A DNA stretch of 64,000 nucleotides from an uncultured Mailhella sp. (lineage in GTDB: Bacteria > Desulfobacterota > Desulfovibrionia > Desulfovibrionales > Desulfovibrionaceae): assembly GCF_944324995.1 (NCBI RefSeq), contig NZ_CALUYL010000014.1:1-64000 (forward strand), written 5' to 3'. The position numbers and the translations under genes were made by a program. Each line of letters begins with the position of its first letter. Position 1 is the first letter of the stretch. The notes under the pieces were generated by a model that saw only the letters and a program-made list of their open reading frames with translations, had not been told where the DNA came from and did no database searches. This document shows, piece by piece, positions 2,139-11,265 of this stretch.

Positions 2139-3263
2139 CTACAGGGAGAGTTGTTCCGCCTTAGCGCGGGTTTTCCTGAGAAAATAGCGTTCCGCCATTT
2201 TCCGATGATGTGCGGGCATGGCGAGATCTTCCGTTTTGTTCCAGGGAACAAAACGGTGGGGAACATCGTCGAGTCTCGCGGAAATTTCGTTCATGGTCAG
2301 CGGGGGATCGGCGGCAATGCGAAAAAAGTGGGCGGTGAGTCTGTGATTGGTGTAGCCGTGCTGAACCTGCCCGAGAGGAGCAATGATTTCCACCGGAATG
2401 CCCATTTCTGCCAGCGTCCGTATGACCGCTTCCTGCGGTGAGCCGGAAGAGACCTCTGTTCCTGGGAATTCCCACATGTTGCCCCAGAGGCCCTCGGGAC
2501 GGCGACGAAGCAGCAGAACCTGACCTTCCACAATGAGAATGCCGTGCGCTGAAGTGACGGGAATGGTGCGGGCTTTTGCCTCGGCAACAGGCCGTTCCTT
2601 TTCCACGCCCAGTTTGTGCGCCGAGCACCAGGAGACGAGGGGACACTGCAGGCATCGCGGAGACTTGCCGCAGACCAGAGCACCGAGCTCCATGAGCGCC
2701 TGATTGTAGGCGCGGGCCTGACCGTGAGGCAGAAAACGCTGAGCTTCCTGACGAATGAGCGCGGCAGCCGGATTTTTTTTGACGGGAGAGTCGATGTTCA
2801 TGAGGCGGGAAAAGACTCGCTCGACGTTGGCGTCGATGGATACCATGTCCTGCTCGTAGGCAATGCCGAGAATGGCGGCCACGGTATAGTCGCCAAGTCC
2901 GGGAAGAGAGGAGAGCGCCTTCTGGGAGTCGGGAACGGTGCCGCCGTGGCGTTCAAGCATGATTTTTGCGGCCTGATGGAGAAAGCGCGCGCGGCGATAG
3001 TAACCGAGACCTTCCCAGTAGCGGAGTATTTCTTCTTCCGGGGCATCGGCCACGGAGCGGACGTCGGGAAAGCGGTTCATCCAGCGTTGAAAATAGGCAA
3101 CGCCGCGTTCCATCTGGGTCTGCTGAAGCATGACTTCGGATATCCAGACTTCATAGGGAGTGTAATGCACTCTCCAAGGCAGCGGACGCTTGTGGAGGGC
3201 GAACCAGGCAAGCAGGGCGTCGGTGATTTTTGTAACGTCATTCTGGGGGAATACGGAAAACAT
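2139..3263 (-). CDS. mutY: A/G-specific adenine glycosylase MutY
   Basis: Base-excision repair enzyme removing adenine opposite 8-oxoguanine. The 374-residue protein shows the catalytic Glu segment SEVMLQQTQ (about residue 40), the helix-hairpin-helix LPGLGDYTV (about 120), and the catalytic Asp in SIDANVERV (about 145). An iron-sulfur motif follows, then a C-terminal NUDIX-like 8-oxoG recognition domain (ILIVEGQVLLLRRRPEGLW and WEFPGTEV). The Fe-S motif reads CGKSPRCLQCPLVSWC, giving Cys spacing 5-2-5 where 6-2-5 is usual. The ATG at 3263 starts the conserved region, but its Shine-Dalgarno is poor, so the exact start is uncertain. It precedes icd by 10 bases. Confidence 0.93.
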   Translation of the reverse strand: MFSVFPQNDVTKITDALLAWFALHKRPLPWRVHYTPYEVWISEVMLQQTQMERGVAYFQRWMNRFPDVRSVADAPEEEILRYWEGLGYYRRARFLHQAAKIMLERHGGTVPDSQKALSSLPGLGDYTVAAILGIAYEQDMVSIDANVERVFSRLMNIDSPVKKNPAAALIRQEAQRFLPHGQARAYNQALMELGALVCGKSPRCLQCPLVSWCSAHKLGVEKERPVAEAKARTIPVTSAHGILIVEGQVLLLRRRPEGLWGNMWEFPGTEVSSGSPQEAVIRTLAEMGIPVEIIAPLGQVQHGYTNHRLTAHFFRIAADPPLTMNEISARLDDVPHRFVPWNKTEDLAMPAHHRKMAERYFLRKTRAKAEQLSL

Positions 3264-3539
3264 CGAGGCAGTATATACGGCAACGATGGTGCTTACAAGA
3301 CAAAGGCAGGCTGTTTTTAAAGAAAAATTGAGGGGAGAGCACGTTGATCGGAAAGGGAGATGAAGGGCGTGGCGCATGCGACGATTTTTTCAGGAAAAGA
3401 ATCAGGTTATGGACTCCAAAAGTCTTGATGCCGGAGTCGGTGATTGCTTTTTGCGATGTAGTGATTCATACTGAACGCAATACAGATGATTTCCGCGCTG
3501 GATGCGGGCGGAAATAGTTGTCCTACTGAGAGGATTCTT

Positions 3540-4730
3540 ATGAATTTTGTGTTTATTTCTCCACAGTTTCCCCAGTCGTACTGGAACTTCTGCGATCGGC
3601 TGAAGGCTCGCGGCGTCAATGTTCTCGGCATAGGGGACACGCCTTATGACGAGCTGTCCGGCGAGCTTCGCGGCTGTCTTACGGAATATTACCGGGTGGA
3701 CTCTCTGGAAGATTACGACCAGGTTTACAGAGCCATGGCGTTTCTTACGTTCAAGCACGGCCGCATAGACTGGGTGGAAAGCAATAATGAGTACTGGCTC
3801 AGTCAGGACGCGCGTCTGCGTGACGATTTCAATATCAAAACCGGCATGAGCGTGGCGGAGGTCGCCAACGTGCGTCGCAAGTCGGCCATGAAGAAGTTTT
3901 ATCAGGATGCCGGAGTGCCTGCGGCGCGCTGGCATCTTATCGGCGATCTGGAGAGCGGCAAGGCTTTTGCGCATGAAGTGGGCTATCCGGTGTTCGTCAA
4001 GCCCGACGGAGGTATGGGAGCTTCCGGCAGCTACAAGATTTCCAGCGATGAAGAGATGGAACGCTTTTATGCGGGCAAGGAAAATGTTCCTTATATCATG
4101 GAGGAATATCTCTGCGGAGACATCTGGTCCTACGACGGCGTTTCCGATTCCAAGGCCAATGTGATTTTTGAAACCTGCACATCGTGGCCGCCGTCCATTG
4201 CGGATATCGTGAACAACAAGGATCATCTGGCCTACTACACTGCGAGCAATCTGCCCGACGATCTCAAAGAAGTCGGCCGCAATACGATCAAGGCGTTCAA
4301 TGTGCGCAGTCGATTCTTCCATCTGGAGTTCTTCAGACTCAGGGAGGACAAGCCCGGTCTTGCCCGCAAGGGCGAGCTGGTGGCTCTGGAGGTGAACATG
4401 CGCCCCGCCGGAGGATGGACGCCTGACATGTTCAACTACGCCAACAGTGTGGACGTCTATTCCATATGGGCCGACATGGTCACGCACGACAAGACTTTTG
4501 TTGATCTCGACCGGCAGAAGTTTTTTGCCGTCTATGCCGGCAGACGCAACGGCAAGCCCTATGTGCATACGCCCGAGGAAATTCGTTCGCGTTACGCCGG
4601 ACGCATCGTCATGGATCTGGACATTCCCGACGCCATTTCCGGGGCCATGGGGAATCATCAGTGGACGGCCATTCTCGATACGGCCGAGCAGAAGGATGAA
4701 TTCATTCACTTTGTGCAGGAGACGTACTGA
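3540..4730 (+). CDS. ATP-grasp domain ligase of unknown substrate
   Basis: A 396-residue ATP-grasp enzyme, which would activate a carboxylate as acyl-phosphate and couple it to an amine or other nucleophile. The N-terminal third is a Rossmann-like pre-grasp domain (FVFISPQFPQSYWNFCDRL). The ATP-binding lysine lies in YPVFVKPDGGMGASGSYK (about residues 150-168), followed by the hinge YIMEEYLCGDIW. The metal-binding region is VALEVNMRPAGGW (about 300), where Glu and Asn are the expected Mg ligands. The start ATG at 3540 follows GAGAGG. The stop codon overlaps the next start by one base (TGATG), so the hydrolase downstream is translationally coupled. I cannot name the substrate; it is not recognisable as PurK, CarB or D-Ala ligase. 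Confidence 0.85.
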   Translation: MNFVFISPQFPQSYWNFCDRLKARGVNVLGIGDTPYDELSGELRGCLTEYYRVDSLEDYDQVYRAMAFLTFKHGRIDWVESNNEYWLSQDARLRDDFNIKTGMSVAEVANVRRKSAMKKFYQDAGVPAARWHLIGDLESGKAFAHEVGYPVFVKPDGGMGASGSYKISSDEEMERFYAGKENVPYIMEEYLCGDIWSYDGVSDSKANVIFETCTSWPPSIADIVNNKDHLAYYTASNLPDDLKEVGRNTIKAFNVRSRFFHLEFFRLREDKPGLARKGELVALEVNMRPAGGWTPDMFNYANSVDVYSIWADMVTHDKTFVDLDRQKFFAVYAGRRNGKPYVHTPEEIRSRYAGRIVMDLDIPDAISGAMGNHQWTAILDTAEQKDEFIHFVQETY

Positions 4731-5467
4731 TGGAGTATCAGCGTCACAGCCAGTACAGCCGGGTTCTCGACCGGGAGCTGCCGTTTCTTGTCTTCGGCCA
4801 CACGGGCAAGCCTGTGATGGTGTTTCCTACGCAAAACGGCCGGTGTACGGATTTTAACGACTTTCAGATGCCGGAAACTGTGGCCGAGCATATCCAGGCC
4901 GGTCGCATTCAGCTGTTCTGTGTCGATTCCATTGATGAAGAAACCTGGTCGGACAAAAACGGCGACAAGGGACGTCGCGCATGGCTTCAGGAGCAGTGGT
5001 TCCGCTACTGCACCGAGGAGTTCACGCCGCTCATGCTGCAGATGAACGGAACCAGGCAGGCCCCGCTGACGGCTGGATGCAGCATGGGAGCAACGCATGC
5101 GCTGAACACGTTTCTGCGGCGGCCCGATTTGTTTGACGGCGTCATTGCTCTGAGCGGAGCCTACGATGCCCGATATTTCTTCGGCGACTACATGGACTCC
5201 AACCTCTACAACAACTCCATAGTTGATTACATGAGAGGTTTTCCCCTGGATCATTCCTATATTCCCATGTTCAATACCCGGAGCATATACATATGCACGG
5301 GGCAGGGTGCCTGGGAAGATGAAATGATACGCACCACAGGCATGCTGAAGGCGATTTTTGAAGAAAAGGGCATCCGCGCCTTTTTTGACTTCTGGGGACA
5401 CGATGTGGACCATGACTGGCCCTGGTGGAGAAAACAGTTCCCTTATTTTCTCAATAAGATTCTTTAA
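4730..5467 (+). CDS. Alpha/beta hydrolase, esterase-D-like
   Basis: A 245-residue cytoplasmic hydrolase with no signal peptide. The nucleophile elbow is GCSMGA (about residue 115) and the terminal segment FWGHDVDHDWPWWRKQFPYF carries candidate acid and His catalytic residues. The layout resembles the esterase D/enterochelin esterase group. It starts on the last base of the ATP-grasp stop codon and is followed at once by a terminator, so the two genes form a closed two-gene unit. The tight coupling suggests that ligase and hydrolase act on the same compound or in consecutive steps; this is inference. Confidence 0.85.
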   Translation: MEYQRHSQYSRVLDRELPFLVFGHTGKPVMVFPTQNGRCTDFNDFQMPETVAEHIQAGRIQLFCVDSIDEETWSDKNGDKGRRAWLQEQWFRYCTEEFTPLMLQMNGTRQAPLTAGCSMGATHALNTFLRRPDLFDGVIALSGAYDARYFFGDYMDSNLYNNSIVDYMRGFPLDHSYIPMFNTRSIYICTGQGAWEDEMIRTTGMLKAIFEEKGIRAFFDFWGHDVDHDWPWWRKQFPYFLNKIL

Positions 5468-5485
5468 AAGCAGGCATCATTCTTG

Positions 5486-5521
5486 AAAAATATACGGGGG
5501 AGTTCCCTCGTATATTTTTTT
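5486..5521 (+). terminator. Terminator of the ATP-grasp/hydrolase unit
   Basis: A long near-perfect stem (AAAAATATACG and CGTATATTTTT arms with GGG/CCC at the tip) ends in a T run. It begins 19 bases after the hydrolase stop codon. The symmetry of the A/T flanks means it could work in both directions. Confidence 0.85.
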
Positions 5522-5770: not shown

Positions 5771-6661
5771 CTACTTTCTGCCTTTGAAAAAAGACATGGC
5801 CTGCCGCACGAGATTTGAAGCCTGTCTGGTCAGTCCGCCGTCGGCGGCAAGCGATTCCTTGAGGGCAATGCGTTCTTCCGGGGACAGGGCGTCCATGTGC
5901 CTGGTGAGTTCATGGCGCTTGCTGTCTTCCATGGCCTGAAAGTTCTTGACGAGTTCAGCCCTGCGTTTTGCCATGACGGCGACATTGGGGCGATCCGGCG
6001 TCACCACGCGGGGGAGGTTGTAGCGGATGAATTCATCAATCAGAGCGACGGGACTTTGTTCGGCAACGAGTGTCAGCTCTTCCGCGTACAGGGGGATGAC
6101 CTCATAAAACGTGACGGCTTCACCGTCGTTGAGACGGCATTGCCCTTCGCGATCGTTCATGCCCGTCAGCATGGCGGCGCAAAGTCCGGTATTGTCGGCA
6201 AAAGGGAGCCCCTGCGAAAAACTGAAGGTATGTCCCCAGGCGTTGTAACTTTGGGTCGTTTCAGGCAGGGATGCAATATTCATCAGCAGGCGAACCGGCC
6301 AGGCGTCCCGCTCTTCGCCGGACTGCACGTTCCAGTCGGCAGGCAGGCGTATCAGATATTCGGCCCTGGGCGGAAGTTCGCTGTCTTTGGGAACGCTCAT
6401 GGGGCGAGCTCCGGCACCGATGGTGAGAAGGATGGTTTCTTCTCCTGCGGAAGGGGAGGTTTGAGCGGAAAAGAGCCTGCCGATATGTTTCCGACTGGGA
6501 GGAGTGAGGGCCAGAATGTCGAGCGCGCCGCCCGAGGGCAGTTGGGCCTGCCCTATGCCGGAGATGGCTCCGAAATGCTTCTGCACATGCGCCATGAGAA
6601 GGTTGCGGTCGGCATTGCCGTACATGGAAGGCGTCGAGGACGTTGTTACCTCGCAGGACAT
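5771..6661 (-). CDS. Suppressor-of-fused (SUFU) domain protein
   Basis: A 296-residue protein whose central part matches the bacterial SUFU family: WPVRLLMNIASLP, the tryptophan-bearing WGHTFSFSQGLPFADNTGLCAA, and FYEVIPLYAEE (about residues 115-215). In bacteria this domain is frequent in polymorphic-toxin immunity proteins and in uncharacterised stand-alone proteins. The C-terminal 80 residues are charged and helical (AKRRAELVKNFQAMEDSKRHEL). The start at 6661 follows AGGAG by 6 bases; the upstream extension of the frame crosses the rubrerythrin terminator and was discarded. No toxin gene lies beside it, so an immunity role is not supported here. Confidence 0.72.
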   Translation of the reverse strand: MSCEVTTSSTPSMYGNADRNLLMAHVQKHFGAISGIGQAQLPSGGALDILALTPPSRKHIGRLFSAQTSPSAGEETILLTIGAGARPMSVPKDSELPPRAEYLIRLPADWNVQSGEERDAWPVRLLMNIASLPETTQSYNAWGHTFSFSQGLPFADNTGLCAAMLTGMNDREGQCRLNDGEAVTFYEVIPLYAEELTLVAEQSPVALIDEFIRYNLPRVVTPDRPNVAVMAKRRAELVKNFQAMEDSKRHELTRHMDALSPEERIALKESLAADGGLTRQASNLVRQAMSFFKGRK

Positions 6662-6825
6662 ACAAAGCTCCTGACAGGTTTCTCCGACAAACGGAGAACT
6701 CGGAAAAGGTTTAGAAAAATCGGCGTTCCCTGGCCGGTTCCGCTGTTTTGCCTGCCGCAGCAAAAAACGGGATTCCCGCATTGTGCGGGAATGTTCTTCT
6801 TGGATAGCGAAAAGTTGAAAAAAAA

Positions 6826-6850
6826 GATACCCCGTCGATGACGGGGTATC
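6826..6850 (-). terminator. Rubrerythrin terminator
   Basis: Perfect 11-base arms (GATACCCCGTC / GACGGGGTATC) with a 3-base loop. The minus strand carries an eight-T tail right after. It lies 82 bases past the rubrerythrin stop. Confidence 0.88.
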
Positions 6851-6931
6851 TTTCAAGCAACACTAAAACTTTTCAGACGCTTCAGGAAAACTGTGCGGTG
6901 AGGGATCCCGCCCGGAAGCGTCTGAAGCGCA

Positions 6932-7614: not shown

Positions 7615-11265
<3,651 letters not shown>

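Follow-up and report, generated by a model that had tools for sequence, protein, structure and literature searches.

A recurring gene pair of a predicted ATP-grasp, dipeptide-ligase-like enzyme and a serine esterase in a gut Mailhella genome

ATP-grasp ligases of the RizA-type fold convert a carboxylate to an acyl phosphate and then transfer the acyl group to an amine. RizA (4wd3), BacD/YwfE (3vmm, 3wnz) and BL00235 (3vot), L-amino-acid ligases of about 400 amino acids, have a three-domain (biotin-carboxylase-like) ATP-grasp fold with ATP-binding, Mg-binding and catalytic residues, and in RizA the pocket for the C-terminal substrate is lined by T81, K83, S84, S156 and A158 (PMC9321006). A second group of enzymes, comprising the CE1 feruloyl esterases (5vol, 7xrt), the S-formylglutathione hydrolases and the Ag85 mycolyltransferases, has an alpha/beta-hydrolase fold with a Gly-x-Ser-x-Gly nucleophile motif and an HDWxxW histidine motif. 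Enzymes of the CE1-type fold normally cleave esters and thioesters and not amides. Here we describe two adjoining genes that bring together one enzyme of each kind, the ligase sharing the fold, the size and the active-site residues of the first group and the hydrolase the fold and both motifs of the second.

The genes lie in the window, by which we mean the whole stretch of 64,000 nucleotides that was analysed, from a 2.9-Mb draft genome of a gut Desulfovibrionaceae of the genus Mailhella, and are currently annotated only as "ATP-grasp domain-containing protein" and "alpha/beta hydrolase-fold protein" (Table 1). A longer ligase reading frame of 414 amino acids is listed from position 3486, but this is an upstream extension, and homologues begin with MNFVFIS at the start given here. 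Both flanking reading frames, a MutY-like one upstream (2139-3377) and another downstream (5771-6856), are on the minus strand, and the ligase and hydrolase genes therefore form an isolated, free-standing two-gene unit. An earlier note on this DNA had described a base shared by the ligase stop and the hydrolase start, a terminator closing the unit and two proteins that fit no named pathway, and these readings stand: stop and start overlap by exactly one base, the terminator stem folds with -20.4 kcal/mol (z = -6.5 against shuffles), neither protein reached the cut-off of any curated NCBIfam model, and no characterised orthologue pair was found. Nor was a description of the pair found in the open literature searched. 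Its nearest named relatives are in assemblies of Mailhella (Desulfovibrionaceae; ligase identity 84-95%). In the closest relatives neither gene is missing, their order is unchanged and they overlap or nearly do so; together with the recurrence of the pair across phyla, this shows that it is not a product of chance.

Table 1. Coordinates of the features of the two-gene unit within the window.
Feature	Position	Strand	Basis
Ribosome-binding-site-like GAGAGG, 5' of the ligase ATG	3528..3533	+	directly from sequence
ATP-grasp amide ligase, 396 aa, ATG start, L-amino-acid-ligase fold	3540..4730	+	homology, profile and structure matches, conservation
Codons for the ESNNEYW acceptor-side loop (E80-W86)	3777..3797	+	alignment with RizA, conservation; role of the RizA loop from PMC9321006
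Ribosome-binding-site-like AGGAGA within the ligase end, for the esterase ATG	4717..4722	+	directly from sequence
TGATG, base 4730 shared by ligase stop (TGA) and esterase start (ATG)	4728..4732	+	sequence
Alpha/beta-hydrolase (PF00756 Esterase), 245 aa, ATG start	4730..5467	+	Pfam, profile, predicted structure, conservation
Intrinsic terminator, 16-bp stem, then T-rich tail	5485..5520	+	folding against shuffles

In Pfam only CPSase_L_D2 passes its cut-off in the ligase, and the best NCBIfam match, to PRK02186 (residues 75-331, E 9e-11), scores 40.7 bits against a cut-off of 625. RizA (4wd3) was the best solved relative in a 61-row profile search (E 1e-16) and ranked first in a structure search with the AlphaFold model of the ligase (pLDDT 92; E 3.5e-26, TM 0.73), followed by BacD/YwfE and BL00235. 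The ATP-binding lysine and the Mg-binding/catalytic E-x-N-x-R motif are intact, and all 61 relatives share the ATP-site and catalytic residues K154, E188, E263, E284, N286 and R288 without exception. The ligase is less than 20% identical to characterised ligases, too little for donor and acceptor to be transferred from them, and since no curated model of a characterised ligase is reached, we regard the enzyme only as working like an L-amino-acid ligase and do not file it as a member of that group. The five RizA pocket residues named above align, in the same order, to N83, Y85, W86, M159 and A161 of the ligase, at an ESNNEYW motif whose E80, S81, E84 and W86 are constant; N83 is replaced in a single row, and F at times takes the place of Y85. 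Such conservation is what one fixed acceptor would demand, and does not name it. By analogy to the solved relatives, the ligase most likely makes a dipeptide-like amide from a conserved acceptor.

The hydrolase passes the gathering score of PF00756 Esterase (40 bits against 22) and remains far below that of the enterochelin esterase (Fes) equivalog PRK10439 (14.9 bits against 222). Its predicted structure (pLDDT 97) matches CE1 feruloyl esterases, S-formylglutathione hydrolases and Ag85. The nucleophile Ser118 (GCSMG) and His228 (HDWPWW) are invariant, and Glu196 (Glu in 52 of 54 sequences, Asp in two) is the probable catalytic acid, an assignment made by alignment rather than from coordinates; D66, D69, E88, H123, C189 and W232 are invariant residues of its own. 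No signal peptide is evident from the sequence of the hydrolase or of the ligase, and the former is predicted to be a cytosolic serine esterase.

A scan of 84,980 species returned more than 500 relatives of the ligase, of which 80 were kept, mostly from gut Bacillota and in addition from Bacteroidota and Spirochaetota. An esterase gene adjoins the ligase gene on the same strand in 65 of 83 cases, from loci of Bacillota, Bacteroidota, Spirochaetota and Desulfobacterota; 13 ligase genes have no neighbouring esterase despite enough flank and five lie at contig edges. Among 13 genomes picked because no esterase adjoins the ligase at that locus, 12 carry an esterase elsewhere, and eight of these have it next to a ligase gene of the same orientation. 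The two proteins also share their distribution: in 249 Bacillota genomes the list of those with the ligase and the list of those with the esterase are the same nine (hypergeometric p ~1e-16), and in about 295 genomes of the window's own phylum all nine with the esterase fall within the 12 with the ligase (p ~5e-15), values that overstate the strength of the association because species are not fully independent, though the pattern is exact. At the thresholds used, either protein occurs in only 6 of 149 genomes of the window's family, and the pair was also found in Peptoclostridium acidaminophilum, Sinorhizobium and Pararhizobium. Chance adjacency was ruled out by this recurrence across phyla and by the co-occurrence statistics. 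Both enzymes are intact by their catalytic residues and are inherited and located together; we conclude that they are functionally coupled, in a near-obligate partnership.

Among the 65 adjacent cases the esterase comes first in 38 and the ligase in 25, with an esterase on both sides in the remaining two, and the spacing varies from an overlap to a gap of several hundred bases. Since order varies and gaps can be this long, the conserved feature is co-location and not translational coupling. Gene order switches at least four times on the ligase tree with adjacency kept, and distances among the ligases correlate with those among the esterases (r = 0.73; permutations gave 0.13 at most); to judge from these comparisons, selection evidently holds the two genes together regardless of order. 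The earlier note had held that scattered neighbours in relatives would speak against a dedicated system, and adjacency proves to be conserved; it had also suggested looking for a third recurring partner, which we find, in one clade, in the form of a second PF00756 esterase. Its statement that ligase and hydrolase are made in a fixed ratio was not borne out, given the variable order and spacing.

Some loci differ in their surroundings or content. In Peptoclostridium acidaminophilum (L166:5779-11046) an 809-kb plasmid carries the pair together with a gene for a tryptophan-rich sensory protein, flanked on either side by a DAHP synthase gene. Genome G103, of the same genus as the window, has a window-type esterase (69%; L155:7740-8480). 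The contig breaks off 830 bases ahead of this gene, that interval contains no ligase, and none was found elsewhere in the genome, a case that counts against the reading favoured below. The esterase frame beside the ligase appears to be split in two at L162:709-1453 (G497:C6), perhaps by a frameshift or an assembly error, and Clostridiales bacterium CHKCI006 (L033:6001-10400) has a tandem ligase-esterase-ligase arrangement followed directly by an M29 aminopeptidase gene.

The window's genome carries a second cassette on another contig, in the order esterase (P0005), esterase (P0004), ligase (P0003), with P0004 49% identical to the window esterase and P0003 50% identical to the window ligase. 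In a quick maximum-likelihood tree of 68 cassette ligases the other Desulfobacterota form one 12-row clade with rhizobial sequences, and the two Mailhella copies, from the window and from the second cassette, are found at separate places in the gut-Bacillota half. Because each is separately placed inside gut Bacillota, each was probably acquired independently, and two separate acquisitions would be the simplest reading of the tree. A phage origin was rejected, no viral contig encoding the ligase. Three faecal, unannotated scaffolds labelled "Bacteriophage sp." (L188, L189 and L190; MT838712, MT836893 and MT838107) do encode it, L189 with a full esterase-esterase-ligase cassette that may be bacterial DNA; these scaffolds are short and unverified, so that host DNA is the simpler reading. 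A mobile plasmid was likewise rejected, as only four large non-mobilizable plasmids matched, and so was a defence system, for which no PADLOC model matched. The Mailhella genome has two pyruvate:ferredoxin oxidoreductase paralogues (50% identical; window 7615-11142 and L004:1197-4715), one close to each cassette, but a link to this enzyme was discarded since the relatives L151 and L153 lack it next to their second cassette, as do the cassettes outside the genus.

Clustering of gene neighbours with a codon model placed a second PF00756 esterase beside the cassette in 23 loci, and no other family of at least 60 amino acids recurs next to it across unrelated genomes. Aminopeptidase genes directly adjoin the cassette in five separate lineages (PepN, PepT, M24, M18 and M29). 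With independently chosen E. coli seeds they account for 5 of the 204 genes immediately next to the cassette (position 1) and for none of the 648 farther out (positions 2-6), an excess with p 8e-4, or 0.014 when lineages are counted; it is a suggestive hint at peptides, from a small signal that was spotted after the fact. Distant ligase homologues, in Massilia among others, stand behind a SAM-dependent methyltransferase gene and are not paired with the esterase (L143:5391-7642; L169:7118-9179). In two distant Desulfobacterota genomes (L146:4910-8808 and L147:7005-11977) a ligase homologue occurs with agmatine-deiminase-like and N-carbamoylputrescine-amidase-like genes and an esterase of the second type, a hint that polyamines could be acceptors in that branch. 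As these distant relatives partner other enzymes, the wider family is not tied to peptides. In Mogibacterium-like genomes the cassette borders on HrcA-GrpE heat-shock genes, and one Desulfobacterota genome shows the same neighbourhood separately (L029, L036, L079, L145).

From fold and residues we infer the reaction class of each enzyme, and further that ligase and hydrolase share one pathway. We favour a two-enzyme, horizontally spreading cassette working on one small amide metabolite in the cytosol, a reading for which we see the chances as evenly balanced. The ligase would use ATP to phosphorylate the carboxylate of an amino-acid-like donor and would couple the activated donor to one particular acceptor through its amine, in the manner of L-amino-acid (dipeptide) ligases. 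The serine hydrolase of the same pathway would act on the product or its precursor, hydrolysing an ester, a thioester or an acyl group there. As CE1-fold serine hydrolases cut esters and thioesters, the hydrolase is more likely to process an ester or acyl group than to reverse the ligase. More tentatively, and with the balance leaning somewhat against it, the cassette may be a minimal mobile biosynthetic unit for one conserved dipeptide-like metabolite common to gut Bacillota, Bacteroidota, Spirochaetota and Desulfovibrionaceae, with the serine esterase as obligate second enzyme and, in one clade, the second esterase as third. If the product is indeed dipeptide-like, gut bacteria would widely share this metabolite. 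The two genes form a small unit that does not depend on its neighbours and whose proteins are predicted to be cytosolic, and such exact co-inheritance across phyla is rare among two-gene systems of unknown function.

The self-contained nature of the cassette, its random contexts and its patchy presence (the 6 of 149 family genomes) are habits of mobile accessory genes, it apparently entered Mailhella twice from other phyla, and it is common in gut genomes. It could on these grounds serve detoxification or resistance, the ligase conjugating a foreign gut carboxylate or amine, whether of host, dietary or competitor origin, to a metabolite of the cell, and the esterase opening or deacylating the same compound. 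We consider this unlikely, however: PADLOC gave no match, no resistance or efflux gene recurs next to the cassette, soil rhizobia and mud clostridia have the pair too, and the acceptor loop is evenly conserved, which points to a single fixed substrate of the cell. The earlier note had proposed a make-and-trim or make-and-break step on one amide or ester, a reasonable inference that the data do not distinguish from sequential steps on different bonds; of that interpretation the coupling and the lack of a named pathway are supported, the fixed ratio and the single bond are not. In its make-and-break form the ligase would make a storage or signal amide and the hydrolase would degrade the same bond, which would set a steady-state level. 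The strict co-inheritance of a synthetase and a hydrolase fits this, but amide hydrolysis would need an unusual activity of a CE1-type fold, which normally does not cut amides, and two enzymes produced together would run a futile cycle; we give it no better prospects than detoxification. Modification of a macromolecule, with the ligase adding amino acids to a protein tail, peptide or envelope polymer and the esterase removing an acyl group from the same polymer, has precedents in other ATP-grasp branches (graspetides and tubulin-ligase-like families; PMC8939145, PMC2824669) but is improbable, as no precursor-like, transporter or envelope gene of at least 60 amino acids recurs, the nearest folds are small-molecule ligases and neither protein has a signal peptide. 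A ligase acting on polyamines, with putrescine or an amine derived from agmatine as the acceptor for an amino acid or another carboxylate, is the least probable. The genes that speak for it, those of polyamine type beside ligase and PF00756 esterase in L146 and L147 and, upstream in L036, a set for a PotA-like polyamine transporter, amount to three places only, L146 and L147 belong to a distant branch without the window-type esterase, the gene matches are below equivalog cut-offs and most cassettes have no polyamine gene nearby.

The favoured cassette working on a small amide stands close to described systems in its parts and apart from them in their combination. At the acceptor side RizA has the loop VSTTEKS, whereas the ligase has its own ESNNEYW, and in contrast to the window ligase, the characterised L-amino-acid ligases are not known to belong to a fixed pair with an esterase (PMC6920838). 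The PRK02186 fusions of ATP-grasp and argininosuccinate-lyase domains are the best NCBIfam match, but the window ligase has no lyase domain. The hydrolase is only about 15% identical to the CE1 feruloyl esterase, S-formylglutathione hydrolase and Ag85 group; unlike the secreted feruloyl esterases it has no signal peptide, and its genomic partner is the ligase and not a polysaccharide locus. Graspetide loci also hold ATP-grasp and alpha/beta-hydrolase genes near each other, but theirs belong to a different ATP-grasp branch and come with precursor peptides and transporters, none of which (at least 60 amino acids) recurs beside the cassette (PMC8939145). Both kinds of enzyme are already known; what sets this case apart is that a dipeptide-ligase-like enzyme is almost always partnered by a serine esterase.
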